A DNA stretch of 64,000 nucleotides, taken from contig NC_020504.1 in assembly GCF_000349325.1 (NCBI RefSeq), forward strand, positions 6,730,053 to 6,794,052, read 5' to 3'. Of the stretch, positions 39,813 to 62,678 are shown piece after piece. Numbering within the stretch: the stretch's first letter is position 1; each line of letters begins with the position of its first letter. Position numbers and translations under genes: made by a program. Source of the stretch: Streptomyces davaonensis JCM 4913. GTDB lineage: Bacteria; Actinomycetota; Actinomycetes; Streptomycetales; Streptomycetaceae. Under the pieces are notes generated by a model. The model had not been told where the DNA came from, did not search any database, and was given only the letters and a program-made list of their open reading frames with translations.

Positions 39813-39832
39813 CCAGGCATGGCGACCGGCAA
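39813..39832 (-). promoter_or_regulatory. Cluster direct-repeat motif, thioesterase operon
   Basis: On the minus strand the sequence is TTGCC, 8 bases, TGCCTGG. It is one of seven such motifs in the cluster and points toward the leftward thioesterase-NRPS-A operon. It lies 16 bp from the motif of the divergent diiron gene. Confidence 0.65.
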
Positions 39833-39848
39833 TCGTGCTGCCGCCCAG

Positions 39849-39867
39849 TTGCCCGGCGTATGCCTGG
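39849..39867 (+). promoter_or_regulatory. Cluster direct-repeat motif, diiron oxygenase gene
   Basis: TTGCCCGGCGTATGCCTGG, 79 bp upstream of the start codon. TTGCC and TGCC repeat with an 11-12 bp period, about one helical turn. Confidence 0.65.
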
Positions 39868-39946
39868 AGCGCGGCGGGAGAACACGGCGAGGATCGGCCC
39901 CGACCTTCCCGCCCTGTGCCCGTTGCCCGAGGAGATCGCAGTTCCG

Positions 39947-40966
39947 ATGACCGCCGTTCCCGACGAGGCAGCCGACCCGACCTTCTTCACACTGGACGCC
40001 GCGAAGGCGGACCTGATGCAGGTGGAATCACTCACCACCGCCTGCCTGAACTGGGACTACGGCAAGCGTGACAGCCGGGTGTGGAGCCTGTACGAGAAGA
40101 ACAAGGCGTCGCAGTGGAACGCCACGACCGACATCGACTGGGACCACGACGTCCGCTTCGGTGCGGAGCTGACGGAGGAGAACGGCGCGCGGCTGGCCGG
40201 CTTCGTCGTCGGCGAGGGCAGTCCGGTGCCGCGCGAGCTGCTCACCCAGTTCCGCTGGGAGTACCAGGCGTGGATGTGCAGCCAGTTCCTGCACGGTGAG
40301 CAGGGCGCGCTGGTGACCACGGCCCGGCTGGTGGAGACCGTGCCCGACATGGACGCCAAGACCTACGCCGCTTCCCAGGTGGCCGACGAGGCCCGGCACG
40401 TCGAGGCGTTCGCGAAGTACATGGACGAGAAGCTGGGCACCGTCTACCCGGTCAACCCCGGCCTCGGCACCCTGCTGCACGACGTGCTGTCGGAGTCGCG
40501 GTGGGACATCGTCTACCTCGGCATGCAGGTGGTGATGGAGGGCCTTGCGATCACCGGGCTGCGGCTGGCGAGCAGCGGCTTCGGCGACCCGCTGATCCGG
40601 CAGATCACCAAGATGGTCGCGGCCGACGAGGCCCGGCACATCGCCTTCGGTGTCACCATGCTGACCGGCATGTACCAGGACGCGATGTCGGCCGAGCTGA
40701 AGGAGCGCGAGGACTTCCTGATGGAGTCCATCCGGCTGATGTCGACCCGGTTCATGCTCCGCGAGGTCTGGGAGCGCATGGAGCTGGACGTGGACAAGGG
40801 CCTGCGCTTCGCCCGCACCAACCCGATGATGGCCACCTACCGGCAGCTGCTCTTCCAGCAGGTCGTGCACGTACTGCGGCAACTGGGCCTGCTGACCGAG
40901 CGGGTGAAGGAGCTGCTGCTCGCCGAGAACCTGGTGCGCCCCGAGACCATGGTGTCGACCCGCTGA
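39947..40966 (+). CDS. Ferritin-like diiron oxygenase
   Basis: A 339-residue helical protein with a complete set of diiron ligands: Glu in FLHGEQGAL, a DEARH motif (ADEARHVEAF), Glu in VVMEGLAI and a second DEARH (ADEARHIAFG). That is two ExxH plus two Glu, as in carboxylate-bridged desaturases, N-oxygenases and hydroxylases. Substrate is not evident; with a fatty acyl-AMP ligase next door, oxidation or desaturation of the lipid is a fair guess, while N- or beta-hydroxylation of an amino acid is an alternative. The ATG at 39947 follows GAGGAG at a rather long spacing. Monocistronic with its own terminator. Confidence 0.82.
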   Translation: MTAVPDEAADPTFFTLDAAKADLMQVESLTTACLNWDYGKRDSRVWSLYEKNKASQWNATTDIDWDHDVRFGAELTEENGARLAGFVVGEGSPVPRELLTQFRWEYQAWMCSQFLHGEQGALVTTARLVETVPDMDAKTYAASQVADEARHVEAFAKYMDEKLGTVYPVNPGLGTLLHDVLSESRWDIVYLGMQVVMEGLAITGLRLASSGFGDPLIRQITKMVAADEARHIAFGVTMLTGMYQDAMSAELKEREDFLMESIRLMSTRFMLREVWERMELDVDKGLRFARTNPMMATYRQLLFQQVVHVLRQLGLLTERVKELLLAENLVRPETMVSTR

Positions 40967-41001
40967 ACACCGGCGGCCCGCTGAACCCCCGAGGCACAGA
41001 A

Positions 41002-41032
41002 ACGGCCCGGCGTCCCAGAGACGCCGGGCCGT
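41002..41032. terminator. Bidirectional terminator between diiron oxygenase and acyl-AMP ligase genes
   Basis: Perfect 13-bp arms ACGGCCCGGCGTC / GACGCCGGGCCGT with a 5-nt loop between two convergent stop codons. Confidence 0.9.
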
Positions 41033-41045
41033 TGCCGTACGGCCT

Positions 41046-42677
41046 TCAGTCCGCCGTGAGCGGACGCGGCTCCGCGGGGAACGAGCCCGCGCACATCTCC
41101 TGCCACAGGACACGGCGCCGCGGCTTTCCGCTGGAGGTGACCGCGATGCCGCCGCGGGGGACCTCGATGGAGAGCAGCTCGGCGTCCCCGAGCCACTCGG
41201 CGAGGACCTCGTGGGCGATGCCCCGCCACTCCGGCCGGCCCCCGGCGAACAGGGCCACGCCGGTCGGCGTGCCGTCGCGGACGCCGAGCAGGACGGCGAC
41301 CCGGCGCTCGGGGATGCCCCGCTGGTGCAGCAGGGTCTCCAGGCTCTCGGCGAAGACCATCTTGCCGCTCACCTTCAGACCGTCACCCAGCCTGCCGATC
41401 ACGAACAGCTGCCCCTCGCGCAGGAATCCGGCGTCACCGGTGTGCAGCCCGCTCTCCCCGATGCTCGTCCCGGAGGCGGAGCCCGCGTCACCGACGTACC
41501 CGCTCGTCAGGGACACCCCCTTGACGATGATCTCGCCGACCTGACCGTCCGGCAGCGCCTCGCCGTCCTCATCCACGACCGTCACCGTCCGGCCCGCCAG
41601 CGGACGGCCGCAGCCGACCACCTCGGTGCCCGCCAGGGACGCCGCGTGCCCGGCGTCCGGCCGGCCCGTGGTCCAGCCCTCCCCGGGCGGCAGCCCGGTC
41701 ACCGCGAGGGTGGCCTCCGCGCTGCCGTACGCCGGGACCAGCGCGCCGCGGTCGAGGCCGTGCGGCCCGAGCAGCGCGTGGAAGTCGTCCAGCACCCGCG
41801 GGTCGACGCGCTCCGCGCCGATGATGACGGCCCGCATCGCGTCGAAGCTGAGCCCGTCGAGATCGGCGGGCCGCACCCGGCGAAGGATGTACGACAGGCC
41901 GAAGTTGGGCATGGCCGTCATCACGATGCGCCGGTCGCTGAGGCAGCGCAGGTAGTTCAGCGGCGAGCGGATGAAATCGTCGGGCTGGAACATGAACCCG
42001 TCGAAGCCGGTGACGACGACGTTCAGCAGGAAGCCGACGAGCCCCATGTCGTGGTGGACGGGCAGCCAGCTCGCCGCCGGGTACTCCGGTGCGCAGCCGA
42101 GCCAGGCGCCCATCCCGGAGATGTTGGTGGCCAGGGCCTCGTTGGAGATCCGCACTCCGCGGGAGAAGCCGCTCGACCCCGAGGTGAACTGGATCAGCGC
42201 GGTCTCGGGGAGCGGCAGCGGCGCGGCGAGCGGCTCGGCCCCGGCGACGAGTTCGTCGAAGACGACCGGTTCACCGAGGCCCGCGTCGGCGGAGATCTTG
42301 CGGATCCGCTCCAGCGACTCGTCGTCGCAGACGACGGCCCGGGGGCGGACGGTGGCCAGCAGGTGGGCGGCGTGCGTGGCGTACTCGTCGGCCCGCTGGA
42401 AGGCGAAGGGCGGGGCGATGGAGCAGGGGGTCGCGCCGGCCGCGAGCGCGCCGAAGAACCCGGCGACGAAACCCGGGCTGGAGCGCTGCACCAGGGCCAC
42501 CGCGTCCCCCGGCCCAACACCGTGCGCGCGCAGGGCGCTCGCCGTCCTGAGCACCAGGGAGCGCAGATCGCCGTAGGACCAGAAGTCCCAGTCGCCGTCG
42601 CGGTTCGCGTAGTACAGGCCACGCTCGGCGGACGCCTCGTCCAGCCAGTCGAGCAGGCCCCGGTCCGGGATTGCCAA
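41046..42677 (-). CDS. Fatty acyl-AMP ligase (FAAL-like)
   Basis: A 543-residue ANL-superfamily enzyme. ATP-binding is at FTSGSSGFSRGV, the SWLPVHHDMGLVG motif and PAYGSAEATLAV are characteristic of FAALs, and the C-terminal domain follows IGRLGDGLKVSGKMVFAE. FAALs make acyl-adenylates and pass the fatty acid to a carrier protein rather than to CoA. It should load the stand-alone ACP encoded at 56.9 kb to start the lipopeptide. The start is a TTG at 42675-42677 preceded by GAGGAC. It is transcribed alone and has its own copy of the cluster motif. Confidence 0.88.
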   Translation of the reverse strand: MAIPDRGLLDWLDEASAERGLYYANRDGDWDFWSYGDLRSLVLRTASALRAHGVGPGDAVALVQRSSPGFVAGFFGALAAGATPCSIAPPFAFQRADEYATHAAHLLATVRPRAVVCDDESLERIRKISADAGLGEPVVFDELVAGAEPLAAPLPLPETALIQFTSGSSGFSRGVRISNEALATNISGMGAWLGCAPEYPAASWLPVHHDMGLVGFLLNVVVTGFDGFMFQPDDFIRSPLNYLRCLSDRRIVMTAMPNFGLSYILRRVRPADLDGLSFDAMRAVIIGAERVDPRVLDDFHALLGPHGLDRGALVPAYGSAEATLAVTGLPPGEGWTTGRPDAGHAASLAGTEVVGCGRPLAGRTVTVVDEDGEALPDGQVGEIIVKGVSLTSGYVGDAGSASGTSIGESGLHTGDAGFLREGQLFVIGRLGDGLKVSGKMVFAESLETLLHQRGIPERRVAVLLGVRDGTPTGVALFAGGRPEWRGIAHEVLAEWLGDAELLSIEVPRGGIAVTSSGKPRRRVLWQEMCAGSFPAEPRPLTAD

Positions 42678-42716
42678 CGTCCTCGTCCTCTCGGGGAGTT
42701 CATGGGAAGCGGGTAA

Positions 42717-42802
42717 GGCCTGTCCGGCGGATCAGACCGACGTCGCGCGGGGCCGGTGAGGGGGCCCGTCACGTGCGGTCGGCCCGATCCGCCGGACAGG
42801 CC
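42717..42802. repeat. 86-bp inverted-repeat element, MITE-like
   Basis: Perfect 17-bp terminal inverted repeats GGCCTGTCCGGCGGATC / GATCCGCCGGACAGGCC enclose 52 bp. It lies in the 369-bp divergent region between the acyl-AMP ligase and NRPS-B, before the two cluster motifs. It has no coding capacity and no clear target-site duplication. The rest of that region holds the two motifs and no other feature I can defend. Confidence 0.75.
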
Positions 42803-42837
42803 CTGGTGGTCAGCATCGGTCCGGTGCGCGGGGTGCG

Positions 42838-42856
42838 CCAGGCAGGGCGCCGGTAA
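42838..42856 (-). promoter_or_regulatory. Cluster direct-repeat motif, acyl-AMP ligase gene
   Basis: On the minus strand: TTACCGGCGCCCTGCCTGG, one mismatch (A for G) in the first half-site, 160 bp upstream of the start codon. Confidence 0.6.
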
Positions 42857-42894
42857 CTCCGGCGGTCAGGCGGCAGCTCGACCAGCAACAGCGA

Positions 42895-42913
42895 TTGCCG
42901 GTCGGTTGCCTGG
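42895..42913 (+). promoter_or_regulatory. Cluster direct-repeat motif, NRPS-B operon
   Basis: TTGCCGGTCGGTTGCCTGG, 133 bp upstream of the NRPS-B start codon and 38 bp from the divergent ligase motif. Confidence 0.65.
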
Positions 42914-43046
42914 TCCCGGGAGCCGCCACAGATGCAGCATCGACCGGGTTCACGCGCCCGATCCGCCGTACGAGCTCACCCGTCCGCAGCGCCGAGCCGG
43001 ACCGGGCGTCGAGCCGTCGCAGTGCACGAGAGCGGTTACGACCTTG

Positions 43047-46000
43047 ATGACTTCACCCGACGCCGACAGCGACCTGCTTCCGCTCACCGCCGCCCAGCGG
43101 GGGGTGTTCCACGCGCAGCGGCTTCAGCCCGGCAACGCGGCCTACAACGCGGTCGCCGTCATGGAGGTCCGCGGACCGTTCGACGGGGCCCTGCTGCGGT
43201 ACGCGATCCGCCGGGCCGAGGCGGAGAGCGGCACCTGGGACGTCGAGCTCGTGGAGCGGCCGGACGGCCTGTACCAGCGGCCGCTCCCGCCGGGCTGCTC
43301 GACCTGGCGGGAGCTGGACCTCAGCGGTGAGAGCGACCCGGTCGCCGCCGCCTGGGAGTTGATCGACCGGGACCGCAGCACCGCGATCGACCTGTTGAAG
43401 GACCCCCTGTGCGGGCATCTGCTGATGCACGTGGGCCCCGATCGTCACCTGTGGTACCAGCGCAGCCACCACGTCCTGTCCGACGCCTACGGCTCCATGC
43501 TGCACTCGCGGCGGATCGCCGAGCACTACGAGGCGCTGACCACGGGCGCGGAGCCGGCCGGTGAACCGCTGGGCGGGATACGGGAGTTGCTGGCGGAGGA
43601 GGCCGACTACCGCGCCTCGGACGACTACACCGCGGACCGGGAGTACTGGAACCGCACCTTCGCCGACCGGCCCGACGTCGCCTCGCCCGCGCCGGGCGTG
43701 CCGACCGCCGCCGCGGAACGGGCGCTCTCCACCACGACCCACCTGACGCAGGGCGAACTCCGGGCCCTGCACACCGCGGGCCGCGAGGCGCGCGCTCCGT
43801 GGACGGTGGTGATGATGACCGCGGTCGCCGCCTATCTGCACGGGGTGACCGGGGTCGAGGACCTGACCGTCGGAGTCCCGGTCACCGCACGGTTCGGCGC
43901 CTCCCGGAACGTGCCCGGCATGCTGTCCAACACCCTCCCGCTGCGGCTGTCCGTCAGCCCCGCCGCGGGCCGCAGGGACCTGGTCCGGCAGACCGCGGCG
44001 CGACTCGGCGAACTCCTCACCCATCAGCGCTACCCCTACGACGAACTCCGCCGCGATCTACGGCTGTTGGGCACGAACGAGCAGGTCTTCGGCGTCCTGG
44101 TCAACATCATGCCGACCGGTTCCGAGACGGCGTTCACCGGGCGCGAGGCGGAGCTGACCGCCCTGTCCGGGGGACCGGTCATCGACCTCAACATCACCTG
44201 CCACCCCGACCCGGACGGCAAGGGCGCCCGCGTCGAGTTCGAGGCCAACCCCGACCGCTACAGCGCCGCCGAACTCGCCGCTCACCAGGCCCGGTTCACC
44301 GACTTCCTGCCCCGGTTCCTGGCCGCGGCGCCGGATCTGCCGCTGGCCCGGGTGGACGTCCTCACCGCGGACGAACGCCCGCAGGCACTCGACGCCGGAC
44401 GGCGGGCGGGACAGGTGGAGCGAGTCGCGCCACGGACCTTTCCGCAGCTGTTCGAGGAGCAGGTCCGGAACACCCCGCACGCCTGCGCGGTGCTCTCCCC
44501 GACCGGACGGCTCGACTACGCCGAACTCAACGCGCGCGCCAACCAGTTGGCCCGCGCGCTGGTGGAGCGGGGCGCCGGGCCCGAGACACTGGTGGCCGTC
44601 GCGTTGCCGCGCGGCACCGCCCAACTGACGGCCGTCGTCGCCGTACTGAAGTCGGGAGCCGCCTATCTGCCGGTGGACCTCGACTACCCGCGGGCCCGGA
44701 TCACCGACATGCTCACCGACACCCGCCCCCTGCTGGTGCTGACCATGCGCGACACCGACGACCCGACGCCGGCCCCGGGAGTCGAGCGACTCCACGTGGA
44801 CGACGCCGCGGTCGTGGACGGCCGCCCCGACACCGACCTGCACGACCACGACCGCCGCGAGCCGCTGCACCCCGGCCACCCCGCCTACGTCATCTACACC
44901 TCCGGCTCGACCGGCCGCCCCAAGGGCGTCGTCGTCACCCACACCGGCCTCGCCGCCCTCCTCCGGCATCAGCGGGACCTGCTGCGCCTGACCCCGGACA
45001 GCCGGGTGCTCCAGTTCGCGTCGCCGAGTTTCGACGCCTCGGTGTGGGAGCTGTGCGTGGCGCTGCTCACCGGGGCCGCCGCGGTGGTCGCGCCCGCGGA
45101 ACGGCTGACGCCGGGCCCGCCGCTGGCCGCCCTGGTGGCCGAACTCGGCGTCGACTGCCTGCTGTTGGCCCCCTCGGCGCTGACGGCCGTACCGCCGGAC
45201 GGTCTGCCGCCGGGCATCAACCTGGTGGTGGGCGCCGAGGCATGCGCCCCGGAACTGGTCGAGCGCTGGTCCCCGGGCCGCCACATGGTCAACGCCTACG
45301 GCCCCACCGAGTCGACGGTCATCGCCACCCAGAGCGCCGCTCTGTCCGGCCGCACCGTACCGCCCATGGGGTATGCGACCCCCGGCACCCGGATCAGGCT
45401 GCTGGACGCGGCGCTGCGGCCGGTGCCGCCCGGGGTGGCGGGCGAGGTCTACCTGAGCGGCGACGGACTCGCCCGCGGTTATCTCGGCCGTCCCGGCACC
45501 ACCGCGGAACGGTTCGTCGCCGACCCCTTCGGCGCACCCGGCGCGCGGATGTACCGCACCGGCGACCTGGCGCGCTGCACGCCCGACGGTGAACTGGTCT
45601 ATCTGGGCCGCGCCGACAGCCAGGTCAAGGTGCGCGGGTTCCGTATCGAGCTGGGCGAGGTCGAGGACGTCCTCACCCGGGCGCCCGGCGTCGCCGGGGC
45701 CGTGGTGACGGTCCGCGAGGACCAGCCGGGGCGCAAGCAGCTGGCCGCGTACGTCGTGCCCGCGCCCGGCGTGTTCGAGCCGGAGCCCGCCGCGCTGCGG
45801 GAGTTCGCCGCCGAGCTGCTGCCGGGCTACATGGTCCCGGCGGCCGTGACCGTGCTCGACGCCTTCCCGCGCACCCCCAGCGGCAAGCTGGACCTCAAGG
45901 CCCTGCCCGCACCGCTCTTCCAGGCCGCGAGCGCCTACCGGGCACCGGAATCGGAGCGGGAGCGCATCCTGCACGCCGTGTTCACCGAGGTCCTCGGCCT

Positions 46001-46259
46001 GGACCGGATCGGCGTCGACGACAGCTTCTTCGACCTCGGCGGCGACTCGGTCGTCGCCATGCAGACGGCAGCCCGTGCTCATGAGGCCGGGCTCGACCTC
46101 ACCGCTCAGGACGTGTTCGTCCACAAGACCGTCGCCCGGCTCGCCGACGTGGCCCGGGACGCCGTACCGCAGACCGCGCCGCGCCGTGCCGAGGAACTCG
46201 TGCGGCTGGACGCGGACGAACTCGACGAGCTCGAAGCCCAGTGGGAGACAACACTGTGA
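43047..46259 (+). CDS. Non-ribosomal peptide synthetase, C-A-PCP (NRPS-B, likely starter module)
   Basis: A 1070-residue, one-module synthetase. The condensation domain (about 8-430) has HHVLSDAYG near 140, a form of HHxxxDG with Ala after the Asp. The adenylation domain has [11 protein letters not shown] near 616 and FDASVWE near 661; the hand-read code is D-A-W-L-V-G-A-V-I, which suggests a bulky hydrophobic residue such as Leu. The carrier Ser is in LGGDSV near 997. An N-terminal condensation domain and a nearby FAAL/ACP set argue that it N-acylates the first residue. The C-terminal acidic segment is probably a docking helix for NRPS-C. ATG at 43047; weak ribosome-binding site. Confidence 0.93.
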
Positions 46260-49200
46260 GACAGACATCCCTGGAAGCCGTGCTGCCGCTCACCCCGCTT
46301 CAGCAGGGCATCCTCTTCCACGCGCTGTACGAGGAGCCGCAGGACAGCGGCGAGCAGGTGGACTTCTACGTCGTCCAGACGCCGCTGGAGCTGGTCGGCC
46401 CGCTCGACAAGGACGTACTGCGCCGCTCCTGCCAGGCTCTGCCGGACCGGCATGCCGCCCTGCGGGCCGGGTTCCTGCGGCGCCGCTCGGGCGAGACCGT
46501 GCAGGCCGTCGCGAAGTCGGTCGAGCCCGCCTGGGAAGAGGCCGACCTGAGCGGCTTCGACGCCGAGGAGCGCCGGGTGCGCCTCGCCCGGCTGCTGGCC
46601 GAGGACCGGGCGCGCCGCTTCGACCTGGCCAAGCCGCCGCTGCTGAGGTTCACGCTGATCCGGCTCGCCCCGGAGCGGCATGTCCTGGTGCTGACCAACC
46701 ATCACATCGTGCTGGACGGCTGGTCCCTGCCGCTGGTCCTCGCCGACCTGTTTCGCCTCTACCGGGACGGCGGGTCCGCCGACGCCCTGGAACCGGCCGT
46801 AGGGTTCGGGGACTACCTCGGCTGGCTCGCGGAGCAGGACCGGGAGGCGGCGGCGCAGGCCTGGCGGTCCGCGCTGGCCGGCCTGGACGGCCCGACGCTG
46901 GTGGCGCGCGGCACGGCCGGACCGCAGGCTCCGGGGCAGCGGCGCGTGATCGCCGAGCTGACCGAGACGGACACCGCCCGCCTCACCACCATGGCCCGCG
47001 CCCACGACCTCACCCTCAACACCGTGGTCCAGGGCGGGTGGGCGCTGCTGCTGACGGTGCTGACCGGGCAGCCGGACGTCGTCTACGGCAACACGGTCGC
47101 CGGGCGCCCGCCTCAACTGCCCGGCGCCGAGCGCATGGTCGGGCTGATGATGAACACGGTGCCCGCGCGGGTCCGGGTCGACCCCGCCGAGCCCATCGCC
47201 CGGCTGCTGGCCCGCGTCCAGGCCGAGCAGGCGGCGCAGGCCCGTCACGACTACCTGGGCCTCGCCGACATCCACCGCGCGGTCGGCGTCCCCGAACTCT
47301 TCGACACCACGGTCGCCTTCGAGAACGTCCCCGTCGACGGCGTCGTGCGCGGCGCCGAGGTCCCCGGGCTCGCGGTCACGCTGATGCGGGACGCCGTGGA
47401 GGACGCCTTCGAGGGCACCCACTACCCGCTGAGCCTGGCCGTCCACCCGGGCGAACGGCTCCGCTTCGAGCTCAACCACCGCGAGGACGCCGTCCCCGCG
47501 GCGCAGGCCACCGACATCCTGCGCAGGCTGTGCGCGGTACTGCGCGACATCGCCGAGCGGCCCGAGGAGCCCGCCGGTCGGCTGCCCGCGCTCACGGACG
47601 CCGAGCGGCACGCGATCGTACAGACCTCCCGCGGCCGTATCTTCGTCCACGCGAGCCGGACCCTGCCCGAGGTGTTCGAGGCGCAGGTGCGGGCGACACC
47701 GGCCGCGGTCGCCGTCGGCGACGGCACCCGGCGGCTGACGTTCGCCCAGCTCAACGCCGAGGCCAACCGGCTCGCCCGGCTGCTCGTCGCCCGCGGCGCC
47801 GGACCTGACAGGCTCGTCGGCGTCGCCCTGCCCAGGACCACCGACGCGGTGGTGGCGATCCTGGCCGTACTGAAGTCGGGCGCCGCCTATCTGCCGGTCG
47901 ACACCGAGCACCCGGCGGAGCGGATCGCCGCCTTGTGCGCTGAGACCGACCCCGTCGTCGTCCTGGCCACCGCCAAGACCGAACTGCCCGACACGGTGCC
48001 GGTCCTGCCGCTCGACGGGACGGACCTGCCCGAGGAGGCGGCGGACCTCACCGACGCGGACCGCACGGCCCCGCTGCTGCCCGCACATCTGGCCTACGTC
48101 ATCCACACCTCCGGCTCCACCGGCCGGCCCAAGGGCGTGGCCGTCGAGCACCGCAACCTGGTCAACATGTTCCACAGCCACCGGGCGAACTTCTTCGACC
48201 CGGAGCGGGAGCGCGCGGGCGGGCGGCCGCTGCGCGCGGCGCTCACCAACTCCCTGGGCTTCGACGCCTCCTGGAGCCAGCTGCTGTGGATGGTCGCGGG
48301 CCATGAACTCGACCTGGTCGACGACACCGTCCGCCGTGACGCCGTGGCCCTCGTCGCGCATGTGGCGGACGCGGAAGTGGACGTCGTGGACACCACACCG
48401 TCCGTCGCCCGCCAGATGCTCGCGGCCGGGCTGTTCGAGACGCCGGGGCGGCGGCCCCGGGTGCTCGCGCTCGGCGGCGAGGAGGCCGGCGAGGACCTGT
48501 GGAGCGAACTGCTGGGCGTGCCCGGCCTGTCGGTGTACAACCTCTACGGCCCCGCCGAGTGCACCGTCGACGCCATGCACTGGCAGGGCGCACCCGGCTC
48601 CCGCCCGGCCATCGGCGTACCCGCCGACAACGCTCGCGTGTACCTCCTCGACGCCTTCCTGCGCCCGGTGCCCGACGGGGCCGTCGGCGAGCTGTACATC
48701 GCCGGATCCGGGGTGGCCCGCGGCTATCTGGACCGGCCGGGCCTGACGGCGGAACGGTTCGTGGCCGATGTGTTCGGCGCACCGGGTGCCCGCATGTACC
48801 GCACCGGTGACCTGGGCCGACGTGGTCCGGACGGGGCCGTGGAGTACATCGGCCGGTCGGACTTCCAGGTCAAGGTGCGCGGTCACCGCATCGAACTCGG
48901 CGAGATCGAGGCGGCGTTGGCGGCCGACCCGGCCGTGGCGCAGGCGGTGGCGGCGGCTCCGGCGGACGACAAGGGCGGGCGGCGCATCGTGGGGTACGTC
49001 CGTCCCGCGCCCGGTGCCCGGATCCGGCCCGAGGAGCTGCGCGAGGCGGTCGCGCGGCGGCTGCCCGCCTACATGGTCCCGGCGCTGGTGATGGTCGTGG
49101 ACACCTTCGCGCTCACCCCCAACGGGAAGGTGGACCGCCGGGCCCTGCCCGACCCGCGGTTCAAGGCAGCCGGTGCCCACCGGGCGCCGGAGACCGAGCG

Positions 49201-52687: not shown

Positions 52688-52854
52688 CCCTGCCGCATCA
52701 CCGCATTACCGCTGGACCAGCACGGCCGGGACCCTGCTCGGCCGGTCCGGAAGGGCACCACCACGCGGCCCGGCAGCGTGCAAGCGCTGCGCGGGCCGCA
52801 CAGGACCGAACGCCCGACGACCCGCACGGTCACGACCCGGTGGAGGACACCGAC

Positions 52855-53925: not shown

Positions 53926-53971
53926 GCCCGAGAGCCTGTCGGCACATCCCCAGGAGAGGCAGCAGCACACC

Positions 53972-54757: not shown

Positions 54758-56013
54758 CCCTGTCCCCCCTGCTCGACGCGGGCCCCGTCGAGGCCCTGGA
54801 CTTCGCCGACCCGCTGCTCCACGCCCACCACGACCTGGGTCCGGTGTGGCGGCGGCTGCGCGCCGAGGCCCCGGTGCACTGGCAGCCCGAGGCCGACGGG
54901 CGCCCCGGCTTCTGGGTGGTCAGCGGGTACGCCGAGGTCGCCGGGGTCCTGGGCGACAGCGAGACGTACACCTCGGAGCGCGGCAACGTGCTCGACACGC
55001 TGCTCGCGGGCGGCGACTCGGCGGCCGGGAAGATGCTCGCGGTCACCGACGGCCGTCCGCACCAGTCGCTGCGCAGCGCCCTGCTCAAACCGTTCTCCCC
55101 GCGCTCCCTGCACGTCGTGGTGGACAGCGTGCGGCGCGGCACCCGCGACCTCGTCGCCCGCGCCGTGGAGCGCGGCGAGGTGGACTTCGCCGCCGACGTC
55201 GCCGCGCACATCCCGCTCGCCGCCATCTGCGACCTGCTGGGCGTCCCGGCCGAGGAGCGCGGGCACATCATCGACCTCACCTCGACCGCGCTGTCCTCGG
55301 CGGACGGCGCCCCCACCGAGGAGGCGACCTGGGCCTCGCGCAACGGCCTGCTGCTGTACTTCTCGGAACTGGCCGAGCAGCGCCGCAAGAAGCCGTACGA
55401 CGACGTGGTCAGCCTGCTGGTGACCCGGGAGATCGACGGCAGGCCGCTGACGCACGAGGAGATCGTCTTCAACTGCTACAGCATCATCATGGGCGGCCAC
55501 GAGACGACCCGATTCGCCATGATCGGCGGTCTGCACGCCCTGATGCACCACCCGGAGCAGTGGCAGGCCCTCAAGTCGGGCCGCGCCGACGTCTCCTCGG
55601 CGGTCGAGGAGGTGCTGCGCTGGACCACTCCGGCCCTGCACAGCGGCCGTACCGCGACCCAGGACGTGCTGCTGGGCGAGCAGTTCGTGGAGGCGGGGGA
55701 CATCGTCACCGTCTGGCCGGCCTCCGCCAACCGTGACGAGTCGGTCTTCGACCGGCCGGACGACTTCGACCTGTCCCGCTCGCCCAACAAGCACCTGTCG
55801 TTCGCGTACGGCCCGCACTTCTGCCTCGGCGCGTTCCTGGCGCGGGCCGAACTGTCCGCCCTGCTGGAGAGCCTGAAGGACCTCGTCGCGGTCGCCGAGC
55901 CGGCCGGCGAGCCGCGCCAGGTGTACTCCAACTTCCTCAGCGGGATGTCAGCCCTGCCCGTCACCCTCACCGGGGAACGCGCCGACGCCGGTCAGCCCCT
56001 CGAAAACGGCTGA
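54754..56013 (+). CDS. Cytochrome P450 (cluster tailoring enzyme)
   Basis: A 419-residue bacterial class I P450: I-helix MGGHETTR near 246 (Gly-His in place of the usual Ala/Gly-Asp/Glu, as in P450s that act on carrier-bound amino acids), ExxR in EEVLRW, and heme loop FAYGPHFCLGAFLAR with Cys357. The GHE form recalls P450s that beta-hydroxylate carrier-bound residues, which would suit an NRPS operon (inference). It is the last gene of the long rightward operon; its final 66 bp overlap the convergent second thioesterase gene. Confidence 0.9.
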   Translation: MTLSPLLDAGPVEALDFADPLLHAHHDLGPVWRRLRAEAPVHWQPEADGRPGFWVVSGYAEVAGVLGDSETYTSERGNVLDTLLAGGDSAAGKMLAVTDGRPHQSLRSALLKPFSPRSLHVVVDSVRRGTRDLVARAVERGEVDFAADVAAHIPLAAICDLLGVPAEERGHIIDLTSTALSSADGAPTEEATWASRNGLLLYFSELAEQRRKKPYDDVVSLLVTREIDGRPLTHEEIVFNCYSIIMGGHETTRFAMIGGLHALMHHPEQWQALKSGRADVSSAVEEVLRWTTPALHSGRTATQDVLLGEQFVEAGDIVTVWPASANRDESVFDRPDDFDLSRSPNKHLSFAYGPHFCLGAFLARAELSALLESLKDLVAVAEPAGEPRQVYSNFLSGMSALPVTLTGERADAGQPLENG

Positions 56014-56742
56014 CATCGTCTGACGGGGGTGCGTCCGCGGGAAGGCGTGCCCCCCAGGCAGGACTTGCATTCGGTACGCGCCCGACGCGTACGCCGCCCA
56101 GGGCTCGACCTGGGCCACGGTGGCCACCTCGTCCTGCTCTCCGGCGAGCGTGAGCAGCGGACAGCTCACCGGGACGGGCTGCGGGATGCGGTGGCTCTCC
56201 GCGAGGGCCAGGTCCGCCCGTACCGCGCGCAGCACTTCGCGCAGGAAGTCCGGGAAGGCGAGCAGTTCGGACGGCAGGCCGTCGCCGCTCCTGAGCCAGT
56301 CGGCCAACTCCTCGTCGGTGGCGCCCGCGACGGCCTCCCGCCCGAGCGGCAGATGCGGCGCACGGGCCGCTGAGCACACCAGAGCGCTCGGCGGGCGCAG
56401 CCCCTCCCGCTCGATCCGCAGCGTCAGCTCGTACGCCAGCGTCCCCCCGAAGCTGTGCCCGAACAGCGCGTACGGCACGGCCAGTTCGGCCCGGATGCCG
56501 TCCAGTACCGCCTCGATGAGCGGACCCCAGGCCGACGGCATCGGTTCCCCCATGCGGGCGCCGCGTCCTGGCAGCTCCACCGCGGCGACTTCCGCCCCGT
56601 CGGGCAGATGGGGGCGCCACGCGCCGAAGGTGGCCGCACTGCCGCCCGCCTGCGGCAGACAGAGCAGCCGCAGCCGGGGCCGCCCGACGGCGAAACGGGC
56701 ACCGATCCAGTCGGCACGGGGGGAGACGCTGTGTGTACTCAT
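55948..56742 (-). CDS. Type II thioesterase (second copy)
   Basis: A 264-residue external thioesterase with Ser97 in GHSFGG, LPQAGGSAATF, AGEQDEVA (acid) and LPGGHAFP (His). It resembles the first copy in length and motifs but is clearly a different sequence. With no fused thioesterase in any synthetase, one of the two may release the product while the other edits carriers. The ATG at 56740-56742 has GGGTGA upstream. It has its own cluster motif 33 bp upstream and overlaps the P450 gene tail to tail. Confidence 0.9.
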   Translation of the reverse strand: MSTHSVSPRADWIGARFAVGRPRLRLLCLPQAGGSAATFGAWRPHLPDGAEVAAVELPGRGARMGEPMPSAWGPLIEAVLDGIRAELAVPYALFGHSFGGTLAYELTLRIEREGLRPPSALVCSAARAPHLPLGREAVAGATDEELADWLRSGDGLPSELLAFPDFLREVLRAVRADLALAESHRIPQPVPVSCPLLTLAGEQDEVATVAQVEPWAAYASGAYRMQVLPGGHAFPRTHPRQTMSAVFEGLTGVGAFPGEGDGQG

Positions 56743-56775
56743 GCCGTTCACCCTCACCCGAGCCCACGGCCACAG

Positions 56776-56794
56776 CCAGGCAGCGAGGCGGCAG
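56776..56794 (-). promoter_or_regulatory. Cluster direct-repeat motif, second thioesterase gene
   Basis: On the minus strand: CTGCCGCCTCGCTGCCTGG, one mismatch (C for T) in the first half-site, 33 bp upstream of the start codon. Confidence 0.6.
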
Positions 56795-56837
56795 TTTCCC
56801 CACAAGGTCCCACGTGGGGCGCGGAGTTGCCGTGCGC

Positions 56838-56857
56838 TTGCCGGGTGCATTGCCTGG
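56838..56857 (+). promoter_or_regulatory. Cluster direct-repeat motif, ACP operon
   Basis: TTGCCGGGTGCATTGCCTGG, 33 bp upstream of the ACP start. A third TTGCC at 56827 lies 11 bp further upstream, so three half-sites follow one another at 11-12 bp spacing. Confidence 0.68.
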
Positions 56858-56890
56858 GACCTGTGATCACGCGGGCCTACGGTCGGGGCC

Positions 56891-57235
56891 ATGACTCACA
56901 CTCCTGCCGCTGTCGAGGCCGACGGCGTGACCCGCGTGGTGTGCGGAATGGTCAAGCTGATCGCGCCGCGCAAGGTCGACCAGGTGGCACCGGACGACCG
57001 TCTGATCGGCGATCTCGGCTTCCACTCCCTCGTGCTCGCGGAACTCGGCTACAACCTCGAGGACCTGTACGGCCTGCGGCCGTTGACCCCTGAGGAGGCC
57101 ATGCAGCTCCAGCGCGTCAGCGACATCGTCGAGTTCGTCGCCGGCGAGGTGGCCGAGGGCCGCGCGCACACGCCCGACGTGGAGGAGCTCGACGCTCTCT
57201 TCGCCCGGTACGGCGCCGAGGCTCCCGCGGCATGA
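56891..57235 (+). CDS. Stand-alone acyl carrier protein
   Basis: A 114-residue carrier protein with the phosphopantetheine Ser46 in DLGFHSL, followed by the helix LVLAELGYNLEDLYGL. It is longer than a primary-metabolism ACP and has an acidic tail after residue 95. It should carry the fatty acid activated by the FAAL-like enzyme and present it to the dehydrogenase encoded next (ATGA overlap at 57232-57235) and then to the NRPS-B condensation domain. Confidence 0.9.
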   Translation: MTHTPAAVEADGVTRVVCGMVKLIAPRKVDQVAPDDRLIGDLGFHSLVLAELGYNLEDLYGLRPLTPEEAMQLQRVSDIVEFVAGEVAEGRAHTPDVEELDALFARYGAEAPAA

Positions 57236-58980
57236 CCGGCGCCTTCGACCGCCCGTCCTACGCCCTGGCGGCGGACCTCGACCGGGCACTCGGCGACCCG
57301 GACGCCGCCGACGGCCCGTTCAGCTACGCGGAGATCGTCGCCCACGAGGAGAACGACGCCCTGCCGCCCGACGCGGTGGAGCTGATCCGGTCCTGGGGGT
57401 TCGCGCAGTACCTCGTGCCGGAGGAGTTCGGCGGCGGGCTGCGCAACCTGGAGCAACTGGCCCTGCTGACGCGGGTGCTGGCCCGGCGCAACCTGACCGT
57501 GTCGGTGATGTTCGGCTCGGCGCTGCTCGGCGTCAACTCGGTGTGGCTGTGGGGTACCGAGGAGCAGCGTGCGCGGGTGGCCCGCGGCATGCTCGACGGC
57601 TCTCTCGCCTGCTTCGCCGTCTCCGAGCCGGACCACGGCAGCGACCTGGGCACCAACGAGACCTCGGCGGCCCGGGACGGCGACACGTTCATCCTGACCG
57701 GTGAGAAATGGCCGGTCGGCAACGCCACCCGCGGCCGCTTCGTCACCGTCTACGCCACCGTCGAGGGCCTGGGCCAGTCCCTGCTGCTGCTCGACAAGGA
57801 GCAGCTGGACGCGGGGAGTTGGGACAACCACCCCTTCGTGAAGACGGTGGGCCTGCGCGGCCACGACCTCAGCGGCATCACCTTCCGCGGCACGCGGGTG
57901 CCCGAGGACGCCCTGCTCGGCCGTCCCGGCGCCGGCCTGACGGGGATCCTCCAGGTACTTCAGATCACCCGCACGGCGATCGGCGCGCTGTCGGTCGGCA
58001 CCATGGACTCGGTCCTGCGGATCGCGCTGCGTCATGCCCAGGAGCGAGTGCTGTACGGGCAGCCGATCCACCATCTCCCGGTCATCCGGCGGCACTTGGT
58101 GGGGGCGTATCTCGACCTGCTGATCGCCGAGTGCACGCTCCAGCCCGTGACCCGTTCCCTCTCCGTCGCCCCCTCCCGGCTCAGCCTGTGGTCCTCCGTG
58201 GTCAAGTACCTGGTGCCGACGCTGGGCGAGGAGGTCGTGCGGGAGGCGGGCCTGGTGCTCGGGGCGCGCAGCTATCTGCGGGAGGGCGTGGCCTCGGGCG
58301 CGTTCCAGAAGCTCCAGCGCGACCATGCGATCGCGAGCATCTTCGAGGGCACGACCCACGTCAACCTGCACGGCATCGCCGCGCAGTTGCCTGCCGTGGC
58401 ACGGGTGGCACAGCGCCCGGCGCCGGGCGGGGAGGACATCCTGCGGCAGCTGTTCGACTGGTCCGAGGAGGCTCCCGTGTGGCGCCCCGCGGGCCGGGCG
58501 CTGCGGCTGACCAACGCCACCGAGGACGAGATCACCCGCGGCTGGGGCGAGGCCGTGACCCGGGCCCGCCAGGTCGCGGAGAGCGAGCTGCCGGCCGCCG
58601 AGGGCGGGGCCCTGGTCACGGTGCTCGACGCGTTCTCGGCCCGCCGGACGGCCTTCTACGCCCGGATCGCGGACGGCGCCCTGGACGCGGCGACGGCCGA
58701 GGCGCAGGACATCGCCGCCGAGCACTGCGTGCACCACGCCGCCGCCTCGTGTCTGTACACCTGGCTGTACTCCTTCGAGCGGGAGCGCGGTTCGGCGGGC
58801 GGCACCGGCTGGCTGGTGCTCGTCCTGGCGCGGCTGCTGCGCAGGCTGGATCCCGCGGATCCGGCGGCCGAACTCGACGAGGGCCTGCTGCCCGCGCTGG
58901 AGAAGCTGATCCTGGCGAGCCTCGACGGCCCGGAGTACTTTTCGCTCCGAACCGTCAAGGCGGCCGCCGGCGCTGCCTGA
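57232..58980 (+). CDS. Acyl-CoA dehydrogenase-family flavoenzyme acting on acyl-ACP
   Basis: A 582-residue acyl-CoA dehydrogenase homologue: FAVSEPDHGSDLGTNETSA in the beta domain binds FAD and substrate, and the C-terminal helical domain contains the IFEGTTHVNLHG segment. It is longer than typical 380-residue members because of a C-terminal extension of about 180 residues with helical character, as in larger actinobacterial members. Coupling to the ACP suggests desaturation of carrier-bound fatty acid, in the manner of LipE-type enzymes in lipopeptide clusters. No SKL-like or membrane signal. Confidence 0.87.
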   Translation: MTGAFDRPSYALAADLDRALGDPDAADGPFSYAEIVAHEENDALPPDAVELIRSWGFAQYLVPEEFGGGLRNLEQLALLTRVLARRNLTVSVMFGSALLGVNSVWLWGTEEQRARVARGMLDGSLACFAVSEPDHGSDLGTNETSAARDGDTFILTGEKWPVGNATRGRFVTVYATVEGLGQSLLLLDKEQLDAGSWDNHPFVKTVGLRGHDLSGITFRGTRVPEDALLGRPGAGLTGILQVLQITRTAIGALSVGTMDSVLRIALRHAQERVLYGQPIHHLPVIRRHLVGAYLDLLIAECTLQPVTRSLSVAPSRLSLWSSVVKYLVPTLGEEVVREAGLVLGARSYLREGVASGAFQKLQRDHAIASIFEGTTHVNLHGIAAQLPAVARVAQRPAPGGEDILRQLFDWSEEAPVWRPAGRALRLTNATEDEITRGWGEAVTRARQVAESELPAAEGGALVTVLDAFSARRTAFYARIADGALDAATAEAQDIAAEHCVHHAAASCLYTWLYSFERERGSAGGTGWLVLVLARLLRRLDPADPAAELDEGLLPALEKLILASLDGPEYFSLRTVKAAAGAA

Positions 58981-58990
58981 GGGCTCCGGA

Positions 58991-60412
58991 TCAGCTGGCG
59001 AAACTCATTTCGCCGCCCAGATCCGCGGGCGTGTGAGCGTCGCGCTCCGCGGACCGGGCGGCCCCGGCGGCGGGGGTGTCGGCCGTGCCGTCGCCGAAAC
59101 GATCCAGCTCGGACACGACATGGCGGACGAGCGCGTGGATGCGGTAGTCGTACTGATGATCCCGGTTGATCTGCACCAGTGAGGCGTCCGCCAGCTCGGC
59201 CAGCAGGTGCACGACCCGCATCGTGTCCAGGTGGCGGCTCGGCCGCATGCCCAGCACGTCGTTGAGCGAGAAGCCGTCCGGCAGGGCGACCAGGTCGCGC
59301 AGCAACTGGCGGTGCGGTGCGGGCAGCAGGTCGTAGCTCCAGCGCACACTGTCCGACAGGGTGCGGTGTGCGCTCAGGCCGCCCGCGTCGACCTGGTCGA
59401 GCAGGTGGAACAGGAACTTCTCGTTGAGCATGGAGTTCAGCGGCAGCGATCTGAGCCGCTGGGCCGCGATCTCGATGGCCAGCGGCACACCGTCCAGGAT
59501 CCGGCACAGCCTGGTGACCAGCGGCAGGTGATGGGCGAGATCGAGCGTGGGCAGGCCGGCCTGCACCCGGCGCAGGAGGAGCTCGACCGCGCTCGGTACG
59601 GCCATCTCGCGGCCCTCCCCGTCGTCGACCCGCAGCGGCTCGACCTCCCAGGTCTCGGCCGGTCCCGCGGTCAGCGCCCGGCGCGAGGTCACCAGCAGAT
59701 GCAGTCCCGGGTGCTCGTCGAGCAACTGCCGTGCGACCCGGGCGGTCTGGTGCGCCACGTGCTCGGCTCCGTCCAGGACGAGCAGCCGCCGGCCGCCGGG
59801 GGCGGGGTCCGCCTCCTCGGTCAGCTCCCGTGTGACGCGCGTCAACTCGGCACGTGCGGCGGCGGCGTCGAGGTGTTCGGGCGGGCAGTCGCGCAGCTCC
59901 GCCACGGCCACGCCGCCGCGGAACAGCGGGCGCAGCCGGGATGCCGCCGCGAGCGCCAGCCGGGTCTTGCCGACCCCGCCGGGGCCGGTGAGAACGACCA
60001 GCCGACTGCGCTGCACGCAGGCCAGGACATGGCGCATGTCGGCCTGGCGGCCCACCAGCGGATCGCCGAGCGACCGTGGACCACGCCACGGCGACAGCGG
60101 CGGCGTACCGCCGCGGTGCGCCGCCGAGGACTGTTCGGGCACCGCCACCCAGCCCGGCCGGTCCCAGGGTGCCGTCTCCGACAGCGGCACGTGCGCCGCT
60201 CCCAGGGCGTTGAGCAGCAGAGAAACGGAAGTGCGGCGCGGGTTGGTGTTGGAGCCCGTCTCCAGATTGCGGATGGTGCGGACACTGACGCCGGATCGTT
60301 CGGAAAGCTCTTCCTGCGTCCAGCCCGAAATTCTTCGCTGGTTCACCAGGAAGTCCCGCAACTGATGAATATCCGCACCGTCGAATGAAATGAACTCATT
60401 CTGGCTGACCAC
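58991..60412 (-). CDS. XRE/NB-ARC-type cluster regulator
   Basis: A 473-residue regulator. An N-terminal XRE helix-turn-helix (about 15-70: WTQEELSERSGVSVRTIRNLE) is joined to an NTPase domain with Walker A GPGGVGKT, Walker B RLLVLDGAEH and the sensor LLVTSRR, then DGVPLAIEIAAQRL and a winged-helix-like end. It lacks the long TPR region of AfsR/SARP or LAL regulators. It is likely pathway-specific. The GTG at 60410-60412 has GGGGA upstream; the frame stays open farther upstream but without a regulator-like sequence. Confidence 0.83.
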   Translation of the reverse strand: MVSQNEFISFDGADIHQLRDFLVNQRRISGWTQEELSERSGVSVRTIRNLETGSNTNPRRTSVSLLLNALGAAHVPLSETAPWDRPGWVAVPEQSSAAHRGGTPPLSPWRGPRSLGDPLVGRQADMRHVLACVQRSRLVVLTGPGGVGKTRLALAAASRLRPLFRGGVAVAELRDCPPEHLDAAAARAELTRVTRELTEEADPAPGGRRLLVLDGAEHVAHQTARVARQLLDEHPGLHLLVTSRRALTAGPAETWEVEPLRVDDGEGREMAVPSAVELLLRRVQAGLPTLDLAHHLPLVTRLCRILDGVPLAIEIAAQRLRSLPLNSMLNEKFLFHLLDQVDAGGLSAHRTLSDSVRWSYDLLPAPHRQLLRDLVALPDGFSLNDVLGMRPSRHLDTMRVVHLLAELADASLVQINRDHQYDYRIHALVRHVVSELDRFGDGTADTPAAGAARSAERDAHTPADLGGEMSFAS

Positions 60413-60719
60413 TGAGATCCCCCATGTATGCAGTGAGTTCAGTGCTGCTCCTGCATATCCCGAATGGCGCGATCGATCCGGCCGGTACCGCTTCACCCAT
60501 GGCCGCACCCCCGTTCGCATGTATTCGGGACCGGAAACAGTCACTCGCACGCGAGGGCAGTCCCTGTTGAGCGGTAAATGTCGACAACAAGACACAGGGG
60601 TTGCCCTTGGCCAGAACCGGACCTTACTCGACGAAGCATTCGAGTGGGAGTTGAGGTCCTGGCAGGAAAGAGTCACATGGTCATTCGGTGTCATCCTCGC
60701 CGTATTCACTGAATTTGGT
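60413..60719. other. 307-bp intergenic region between regulator and PPTase genes
   Basis: It separates two leftward genes and is less GC-rich than its surroundings. It should contain the promoter of the XRE/NB-ARC gene. I see no copy of the TGCCTGG motif here, no clear terminator, and only a 64-codon open frame (60396-60590) that overlaps the regulator start and has no recognisable features. Confidence 0.6.
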
Positions 60720-61403
60720 TCAATGCCCCGTCGTGGCTGCCACGGGGAGTGCGACCACGGCCAGCAAGTGCCCCGAGGACACCGCCCAGCGACCCGTGAA
60801 GTCCGCCGCCGGTATTTCCCGGCGGAGCCGCCCGGAGTCCGGGGCGACACCCCCGAACGTGCCGTCGGCGCGCAGCCGGACCCGGAACTCCCGAACCCCG
60901 AAACGCGCCCCGAGCCACGGGGAAAACGCCTTGTAGGCCGCCTCTTTGGCGCAGAACAGCAACCGGTCGAGGGGCAGCTCGCAGGCACCGGCGAAGTCCT
61001 CCCGCAGCCGACGCGCCTCCGCTTCCGTCACGATGCGCCTCGCGACCACGTCCGGCAGGCTCCGGCAGGGCTCCGCGTCGATGCCGAGCCCCGCGAAGTC
61101 GGCGGCCCGCGCAACGGCGGCGGCCCGGTATCCGGGGCAGTGGGTCATACTCCCGACGATCCCGGCCGGCCAAACCGGCGCGCCGAGGGGTCCGGGCACG
61201 AGCGGCCCGGGGGGCACCCCGAGCGACGCCAGAGCCCGGCGGGCGCAGCCGCGCACCGTGGTGAACTCCGCGCGCCGGTCGTCCAACACCCCATCGACCA
61301 GGGCTCGTTCGGCGGGGAACAGGTCCACCGCGGCATCCGGTCCGTCGTCGCCGAACGCCTCACCGGCATGGACGCCGAGGGGGACCAGGTCAGCAATCAA
61401 GCC
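60720..61403 (-). CDS. 4'-phosphopantetheinyl transferase (EntD/Npt type)
   Basis: A 227-residue PPTase. The family motifs are visible: the early GVHAGEAFGD, SMTHCPGYRAAAVA, the Mg-binding GIDAEP and the FCAKEAAYKAFSPW signature. It converts apo carrier domains to holo form with CoA and probably serves the seven carriers of this cluster (six in the NRPS proteins plus the ACP). I prefer the TTG at 61401-61403 (MIADLVPLG), with GGAG upstream, because it matches where the family begins; a GTG six codons earlier (61421) is possible. Confidence 0.88.
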   Translation of the reverse strand, partial: GLIADLVPLGVHAGEAFGDDGPDAAVDLFPAERALVDGVLDDRRAEFTTVRGCARRALASLGVPPGPLVPGPLGAPVWPAGIVGSMTHCPGYRAAAVARAADFAGLGIDAEPCRSLPDVVARRIVTEAEARRLREDFAGACELPLDRLLFCAKEAAYKAFSPWLGARFGVREFRVRLRADGTFGGVAPDSGRLRREIPAADFTGRWAVSSGHLLAVVALPVAATTGH

Positions 61404-61541
61404 ACAACTCCGGCCACACACGGCTTGTTTCGACAGTGCACATGTGAGCTTCCTGTGATGAACATGACCCTCGTGTGAGGATGGAGTGCGGCAACACCTG
61501 AGGTATGGGACGAGCTACGGGGAACACGGGGGCGTGGCCGA

Positions 61542-62519
61542 ATGCTGGAGAGGTTGGGGCTCGACGACACTGCGGGGGCAGTGTACGAACACCTCATCAC
61601 CGACCATGACCCGGACCAGGACACTGACCACCTGGCCCGGCGTCTGGAACTGACCGAGGACGACGTGCGCACGGCGCTGAAGCGACTGGAGGAACTGAAC
61701 CTGGTCCAACCGACCGGCGACGGCCCGGCCCGGCCGGTGGATCCGCGGCTCGGCCTCAAGGCCCTGCTCTTCCGGCAGATGTCCGGGATCGAGGCGCAGT
61801 TGCTGGCGTTCGAGCAGGACCGGGCCGCCGTGCTGACCCTGGTCGACAAGTACGCCAGGCACGCGGGCCACCGGGGCGCGGCCGAGGGCGTCGGCGGCGA
61901 GTACGTCACCGGGCGCGAGGCCGTGGCCGGCAGGCTGTCGGAGCTGGCCGACGCCGCCGGCACCGAGTGGCTGGCCTTCGCCCCGGGCGGTGCACCGTCC
62001 GTGAGCTGGCTGGAGTCCGTGCAGTCGCTCGTGCGCCAGGTACGCGGGCGCGGCGTCGCCGCCCGTACGGTCTCCACCGACAGCATCCGGGGCGGAACGC
62101 AGTGGGCGGACTTACCGCGCACCGGGGTGCGCACGGTGCCCTCGCTGCCCGTACCGATGCTCATCGTCGACCGGTCCACCGCGTTGCTGCCGACCGAACC
62201 GGCCGCTCCCTGGCGCGGCGTTCTCCAGCTGTCCGCACCAGGCGTACTGGAGGCCCTGATCGCCCTGTTCGAGGGCGTGTGGGCGAGCGCCGTCCCGCTC
62301 GGCGGTGTCGAAGCGCGCCCCGCCGAGGGCGGGTTGAACCCGCGGGAGCGGGAAGTGCTGCGGCTGCTGGCACGCGGCCTCAACGACGACGCCGTCCGCA
62401 GACGGCTCGGCCTCTCCCTGCGCACGGTGCGCAGAATCGTCGCCGACCTGTGCACCCGCCTGGGCGCGGCCAGCCGCTTCGAGGCGGGCTACCTGGCCGC
62501 CAAACGCGGCTGGATCTAG
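61542..62519 (+). CDS. TrmB/LuxR-type transcriptional regulator
   Basis: A 325-residue regulator with a TrmB-like winged helix at the N-terminus (about 1-70: TDHLARRLELTEDDVRTALKRL), a central sensor-like domain (about 95-245) and a LuxR-family helix-turn-helix at the C-terminus (about 265-325: LNPREREVLRLLARGLNDDAVRRRLG). This layout is usual for cluster-situated activators. Codon 191 is TTA. It is divergent from the PPTase gene and lies just upstream of the exporter. It is my first candidate for the protein that binds the TTGCC/TGCCTGG repeats. Confidence 0.88.
   Translation: MLERLGLDDTAGAVYEHLITDHDPDQDTDHLARRLELTEDDVRTALKRLEELNLVQPTGDGPARPVDPRLGLKALLFRQMSGIEAQLLAFEQDRAAVLTLVDKYARHAGHRGAAEGVGGEYVTGREAVAGRLSELADAAGTEWLAFAPGGAPSVSWLESVQSLVRQVRGRGVAARTVSTDSIRGGTQWADLPRTGVRTVPSLPVPMLIVDRSTALLPTEPAAPWRGVLQLSAPGVLEALIALFEGVWASAVPLGGVEARPAEGGLNPREREVLRLLARGLNDDAVRRRLGLSLRTVRRIVADLCTRLGAASRFEAGYLAAKRGWI
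62112..62114 (+). other. TTA codon in the TrmB/LuxR regulator
   Basis: In-frame TTA (codon 191, in WADLPR). TTA codons are rare in Streptomyces and need the developmentally controlled bldA tRNA, so this would delay production of the regulator until late growth. Confidence 0.85.
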
Positions 62520-62566
62520 CCCGGTTGTGCGGGCCCGCGGGGGCAGCGGCAACTTTCTCCCGGGAG

Positions 62567-62585
62567 TTGCCGGTGCACTGCCTGG
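62567..62585 (+). promoter_or_regulatory. Cluster direct-repeat motif, exporter gene
   Basis: TTGCCGGTGCACTGCCTGG, 93 bp upstream of the MFS start codon. It also forms the right arm of a small hairpin (CGGCAACT / AGTTGCCG, 62547-62572) that could end the regulator transcript. Confidence 0.65.
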
Positions 62586-62639: not shown

Positions 62640-62678
62640 TGGACAAATGGCCTGGTGAACGGGGGCGGGCGGAGGGCG

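Follow-up and report, generated by a model that had tools for sequence, protein, structure and literature searches.

Within a stretch of 64,000 nucleotides of the Streptomyces davaonensis JCM 4913 genome (contig NC_020504.1, positions 6,730,053–6,794,052; hereafter the window, whose own numbering is used throughout), a short direct repeat, TTGCC-N7/8-TGCCTGG, recurs in front of the genes of a nonribosomal peptide synthetase (NRPS) cluster. The locus raises the question of which protein reads this repeat, and what it does there. Our analysis indicated that the motif is probably the operator of one cluster-situated activator, the XRE/STAND protein encoded at 58991–60412 on the − strand (473 aa), both binding and activation being inferred from sequence comparison. 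A first-pass annotation of the window had proposed that the repeat is a shared operator which defines one regulon, and this proposal is supported by conservation, position and specificity. It had left the binder between a TrmB/LuxR and an XRE/NB-ARC protein; our comparison favours the latter.

Seven copies of the motif in the window

Five exact copies of TTGCC-N7/8-TGCCTGG were found in the window. The copy at 39813–39832 (−) lies before a thioesterase gene, TE1 (start ~39717), with TauD1 and NRPS1 behind it, and the copy at 39849–39867 (+) before an AurF-like diiron oxygenase gene (start ~39947). The other three are all on the + strand: 42895–42913 before the unit NRPS2-NRPS3-TauD2-SDR-P450, 56838–56857 before the genes of an acyl carrier protein (ACP) and an acyl-CoA dehydrogenase family protein (ACAD), and 62567–62585 before an MFS exporter gene (start ~62679). 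Two further copies, both on the − strand, have a single mismatch in the first half: TTACC at 42838–42856, before a fatty acyl-AMP ligase (FAAL) gene, and CTGCC at 56776–56794, before a second thioesterase gene, TE2. The limits of these operons were inferred from gene order. All seven positions and orientations listed by the first-pass annotation were found again, as were the two mismatched copies, and it was also right that each copy faces a cluster gene and that the copies include three divergent pairs.

The half-site can be written as TTGCCKGG (TTGCC[G/T]GG) in direct orientation. The first-pass annotation had put the repeat at about one helical turn; measured from TGCC to TGCC, the period is 11 bp with N7 and 12 bp with N8. 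The 56838 site is preceded, at a distance of 11 bp, by a third TTGCC half-site (56827–56831, +), which is, with the fixed −10 spacing reported below, an addition to the earlier description of the motif. This third copy, 11 bp upstream, is frequent in the ACP promoters of related clusters, being present in most of them, and in the exporter promoters an oppositely oriented GGCAA often lies some 20 bp upstream.

A chance likeness of words common in GC-rich promoters would be the simplest explanation of such a series, and TGCCTGG by itself does occur in the window at about chance frequency (13 observed vs 11.6 expected). The complete motif, however, averaged only 0.02 exact matches in shuffled windows (64 kb), and none of 100 shuffles reached five. 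When up to two mismatches were allowed and a −10-like hexamer (xAxxxT) was required at +20/21, the scan of the window returned exactly the seven sites, while the reversed sequence returned two. Chance likeness is refuted by the conservation described below; the shuffles, the −10 spacing, the relaxed scan and the scan of 392 genomes also speak against it, and we give it next to no probability.

The motif has eight exact matches in the complete 9.56-Mb genome, and five of these lie within the window; the backward pattern gives two. Because the remaining three matches (L001, L002, L008) are covered by long open frames and lack a hexamer at +20/21, they were dropped as additional members of the regulon. 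When one mismatch was tolerated (N7 spacing only), the genome gave 56 matches, fewer than the 88 of the backward pattern; the motif by itself is thus not enriched across the genome and is no genome-wide element. Equal density of the motif elsewhere, which the first-pass annotation had named as an outcome that would speak against a regulon, was seen neither in this genome nor in 392 genomes of the genus, intergenic and coding DNA being taken together in the genome-wide counts. No description of a Streptomyces regulator site made of TGCCTGG direct repeats was found in the open literature searched, which is weak evidence that the site has not been described.

Conservation of the sites in related clusters

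When genome contigs were scanned with the ACAD protein, 57 loci were found. Those of related clusters among them (L069–L083), taken together with L040–L053 from a different scan, make up 29 loci (354 kb), which contained 25 exact sites, vs none in the reversed sequence; the other 42, distant ACAD loci (716 kb) contained no exact site. The first-pass annotation had suggested that conservation in related clusters be checked, and the sites proved to be kept.

In orthologous clusters the sites stay with their genes, often including the TTACC (FAAL) and CTGCC (TE2) variants. The TTACC variant of the FAAL site is shared with G257, G400, G057 and G199. The CTGCC variant of the TE2 site is shared with G257, G199 (the same as L080), L070 and L073; G115 and L077 have TTGCC. 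The divergent pair between TE1 and the AurF-like gene is also present in G057, G199 and G257, and the orthologous cluster of G724, within the genus, has the expected sites.

Another divergent pair was observed at positions 1516 and 1594 of locus L143 (genome G001), one site being exact and the other having a mismatch in the second half, with the hexamer at both. The pair lies between an NRPS frame and genes for B12-binding/methylaspartate mutase E-chain proteins, beside an XRE/STAND gene. The locus is probably another NRPS cluster, one that is supplied with 3-methylaspartate and controlled by a switch of the same kind.

Distance to the putative −10 element

The −10-like hexamer xAxxxT follows TGCCTGG in all seven sites of the window, at a distance of 20 bp in four sites and 21 bp in three. 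The hexamers are CACGCT (39792–39787) for TE1, GAGGAT (39889–39894) for the AurF-like gene, GATGCT (42817–42812) for FAAL, CAGCAT (42935–42940) for NRPS2, GAGGGT (56755–56750) for TE2, TACGGT (56878–56883) for ACP and CAGCAT (62607–62612) for the exporter. The background frequency for two adjacent offsets is 0.033, and seven of seven would be expected by chance at about 2e-9 after multiplying by 40 offsets. When the window was taken together with the 29 related regions, which had been collected by protein similarity and not by the −10 hexamer, 60 of 61 distinct sites had xAxxxT at +20 to +22, although many of the 61 are orthologous and so not independent; in the other blocks of four bases, the hexamer was seen in between 0 and 14 sites. 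Three pairs of entries (G400/L081, G199/L080 and G115/L075) cover the same genomic stretch, and their repeated sites were counted once. In a wider set the hexamer was present in 85 of 87 sites, some of which came from searches whose pattern already contained it.

At the 56776 and 56838 promoters, the ATG (at 56891 in the latter) comes 7 bases past the hexamer, and both promoters are probably leaderless. If the hexamer occupies −12 to −7, each site would span about −51 to −33, with its centre near −42, and would thus lie over the −35 region. Relative to these predicted start points, the sites have the position over −35, the centre near −42 and the fixed distance to −10 of a class II activator site. 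The fixed distance and the position support a contact with RNA polymerase.

The place over the −35 region is also the classical one for a repressor, and the same XRE/STAND protein could bind there and repress by blocking polymerase. A repressor, though, would be expected to tolerate variation in the distance to −10, which almost every site keeps at 20 or 21 bp, and no consensus −35 was seen by eye at these promoters, which also argues against blocking. We consider repression improbable.

Co-occurrence of the sites with XRE homologues

As a test from the side of the motif, 392 genomes of the genus were scanned for the site together with its −10 hexamer. This gave 59 matches in 25 genomes, and the backward pattern gave 39 in 36 genomes. 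At least two matches were found in ten genomes (44 matches), and all ten carry an XRE homologue, which is split in G298. At least one match was found in 13 of the 15 genomes with an XRE homologue vs 12 of the 377 without one (Fisher p 8e-16). Single matches in genomes without an XRE homologue were no commoner than those of the backward pattern.

From the side of the regulator, 14 genomes besides that of the window were found to carry an XRE homologue at E ≤ 4.7e-50. The fetched regions around these homologues contained a site, exact or with one mismatch, in 11 of the 14 genomes, and altogether (468 kb) they held 34 sites with at most one first-half mismatch vs 2 in the reversed sequence. In genome G143 two sites lie about 19 kb from the XRE-homologue gene, one of them without the hexamer. 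Four more XRE loci, from outside the genus, were selected purely by the protein, and three of them have sites whose hexamer falls at +20 to +22. These are G069 (42% identity to the window protein), with one exact site and its hexamer; G070 (33% identity), with an exact divergent pair, a hexamer at both sites, and three relaxed matches vs one reversed; and G935 (41% identity), with two one-mismatch sites having the hexamer at +21/22, a weaker site without it, and three matches vs none reversed. At eight divergent XRE loci, the XRE protein and NRPS-type frames alone were common to all in the three blastp queries that were run, the XRE protein by construction.

The TrmB/LuxR-type protein (61542–62519, +; Pfam GerE) was the other candidate for the binder of the shared sites. 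Its gene sits in the cluster, adjoining the exporter site, and has orthologues in several orthologous clusters; LuxR-type activators often bind near −42, and the position of the sites fits them too. But the sites do not co-occur with this protein. The genome G057 has five matches to the site with its −10, and its best LuxR match genome-wide is only 35% identical. In G185 the best LuxR match (39%) is on another contig, in G298 a 44% match lies about 1.9 Mb away from the cluster, and at L069, L071 and L083 there was no LuxR match in the fetched 19–22 kb. Twenty 20-kb regions around LuxR homologues contained no exact site (one in the reversed sequence) and one one-mismatch site vs one in the control. 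There was also no exact motif in 29 LuxR-homologue loci with 1.5-kb flanks, which are too short for a fair test. The LuxR protein is therefore unlikely to be the binder, and it may still act upstream.

The sites could also be used by a regulator whose gene lies elsewhere, such as a SARP or a global factor, while the XRE gene merely travels along, and two genomes speak in favour of this. In the G101 genome, which is 99% complete, a divergent site pair stands before an ACP-like gene, and no close homologue of the XRE protein is present. This pair, located at L225 (G101:C36 near 85241), is either a remnant or another binder's. The XRE gene of G298 (L142) is split in its helix-turn-helix (HTH) region by inserted DNA, about 1.2 kb lying between the two HTH parts, yet five site matches are kept; the regulator there may be dead or recently disrupted. 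The 11-bp direct repeats also recall SARP boxes, whose 3′ repeat, however, lies 8 bp from −10 according to PMC10936776, and not 20–21 bp as here. Against a regulator from elsewhere stand the absence of genome-wide enrichment of the motif, the background level of single matches in genomes without an XRE homologue, and the recurrence of the XRE protein and NRPS-type frames, and of nothing else, at the eight divergent loci. We give this explanation little probability.

The XRE/STAND protein and its proposed action

A Pfam scan of the 58991–60988 frame returned HTH_3, HTH_31, AAA_16, nSTAND_NTPase5 and MerR only. HTH_3 scored 35.8 bits against a cut-off of 23, as expected of an XRE-type DNA-binding protein. 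The Walker A (GPGGVGKT) and Walker B (LLVLD) motifs of a STAND protein are present. In 36 homologues, chosen from 120 listed, the Walker residues G143, G146, G148, K149, L210 and D214 are invariant, and the recognition helix likewise keeps S43, R45, T46, R48 and N49 in every one. No C-terminal sensor repeats (TPR, WD40) were found by Pfam in the 473-aa chain. The homologues have generic public names among the 120 of 272 matches listed. The available part of a survey of Streptomyces regulators (PMC12224297) ties XRE genes to hopene/terpene clusters and contains no description of this XRE/STAND family.

Several points weigh against the XRE/STAND protein as the activator, besides the two genomes named above and the orthology of many sites. 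The NTPase profiles are sub-threshold (AAA_16, 30.0 of 32.6; nSTAND_NTPase5, 24 of 34), and in one homologue NB-ARC reaches 22.4 of its 23.5 cut-off; the label STAND was thus given from the motifs together with sub-threshold profiles. XRE-family domains usually bind inverted repeats. The backward pattern likewise gives two genomes with at least two matches among the 392. The homologue regions of G121 and G186 have no site, the latter lying near a contig end. Outside the genus, G064 (45% identity, near a contig end) has no site, with no relaxed match vs one reversed, and the relaxed scan of G069 gave one match vs seven in the reversed sequence. Finally, the loci compared were mostly picked by XRE homology, and the scan of 392 genomes is the sole test from the side of the motif.

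With the XRE/STAND protein as the activator, the following mechanism can be proposed. The protein would occupy the half-sites along one face of the helix, its subunits arranged head to tail in a dimer or oligomer, and its NTPase would gate the assembly on direct repeats. Once bound, it would recruit RNA polymerase and so replace the −35 element, the −10 being an ordinary sigma-type hexamer 20–21 bp past the second half-site copy, and the biosynthetic units and the exporter would be switched on together. No site lies ahead of the XRE/STAND, phosphopantetheinyl transferase or LuxR genes, the relaxed scan of the window having returned only the seven, so the switch would be set by something upstream of the XRE/STAND protein.

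With somewhat less confidence, we lean towards a separate class of compact, sensor-less XRE-STAND activators of biosynthesis. These would bind head-to-tail on TTGCCKGG repeats about 20 bp before −10, replacing the −35 element, with a code that is kept in different NRPS clusters, from one genus to another and in two or more families of the order. If this is true, one pattern finds the regulons of the class, and a regulator family with generic names is now paired with a searchable DNA code. Silent NRPS clusters would also become predictable and testable, as expression of one small regulator should turn on the site-bearing operons, including the exporter.

Comparison with known activators

MalT and the LAL proteins join an HTH to a STAND-type NTPase and use direct-repeat sites upstream of −10, as proposed here. 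MalT, however, has a C-terminal LuxR-type HTH and a large sensor domain, whereas the present protein has its HTH, which is of the XRE type, at the N terminus, and little of the chain follows the NTPase part. The nearest scored HTH domains are those of the XRE antitoxins HipB and Y4mF, the match being limited to the HTH and weak (E 0.02 in a structure library; below the curated cut-off in NCBIfam). HipB and Y4mF are small autorepressors which bind inverted repeats.

SARP activators of the AfsR and ActII-4 type are similar in that they are cluster-situated, have direct repeats of about 11 bp, and use sites that make up for a poor −35; a STAND-type NTPase is likewise part of AfsR (PMC10936776). 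According to the same source, the afs box is centred at −29.5, compared with about −42 here, and the XRE-type HTH, the TTGCCKGG half-site and the longer distance to −10, seen in all seven window sites, are further differences. The Pfam scan of the 58991–60988 frame found no Trans_reg_C or BTAD, the domains of SARP proteins. The XRE/STAND system would be a clean case of activation from direct repeats by an XRE-NTPase, with a geometry unlike that of SARP.

Genes of the cluster

On the − strand, NRPS1 (31303–37800), the TauD1 dioxygenase (37901–38863) and TE1, a type II thioesterase (38929–39717), lie together. They are followed by the AurF-like diiron oxygenase (39947–40966, +) and FAAL (41046–42677, −), which matches AMP-binding in Pfam, the NCBIfam FAAL subfamily models being below cut-off. 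The + strand unit behind it consists of NRPS2 (C-A-T; 43047–46259), NRPS3 (two C, two A and two T domains; 46241–52687), TauD2 (52840–53925), an SDR (53972–54757) and a cytochrome P450 (54754–56013, start estimated). The TE2 thioesterase (55948–56742, −), ACP (56891–57235, +) and ACAD (57232–58980, +) come next. Beyond the XRE/STAND gene lie a 4′-phosphopantetheinyl transferase (60720–61421, −), the TrmB/LuxR-type gene and the MFS exporter (62679–64000, +), which continues beyond the end of the window.

The presence of FAAL, ACP, ACAD and NRPS genes suggests that the product is a lipopeptide. The rotihibin cluster was considered as the same pathway and rejected: its lipid-loading genes are alike, yet its published 14-gene table, in the available part of the paper, has no regulator (PMC8552735). 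TauD2 belongs to the arginine/enduracididine beta-hydroxylase family and passed the cut-off of the model for GntD, an enduracididine beta-hydroxylase (367.8 bits vs 345). Its match to L-enduracididine beta-hydroxylase and arginine hydroxylases gives a hint that the product carries an arginine-type residue with a hydroxyl group. The AurF-like diiron oxygenase was observed under the same operator as the rest of this lipopeptide-type cluster.

Inverted repeats near two proposed operators

A 31-bp inverted repeat (81%) was found at 62581–62642, across the exporter −10 and the predicted transcript start, with a 16-bp palindrome at its centre. This palindrome (62604–62619) was considered as a second operator and rejected, since by eye its left half alone looks kept in orthologues. 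At 42717–42802, at the start of the predicted FAAL transcript, there is a 25-bp inverted repeat (92% complementary, with a 36-base loop). The genome has only two copies of its 17-base outer word, both of them within this hairpin, which could serve for stabilisation or attenuation at the 5′ end.

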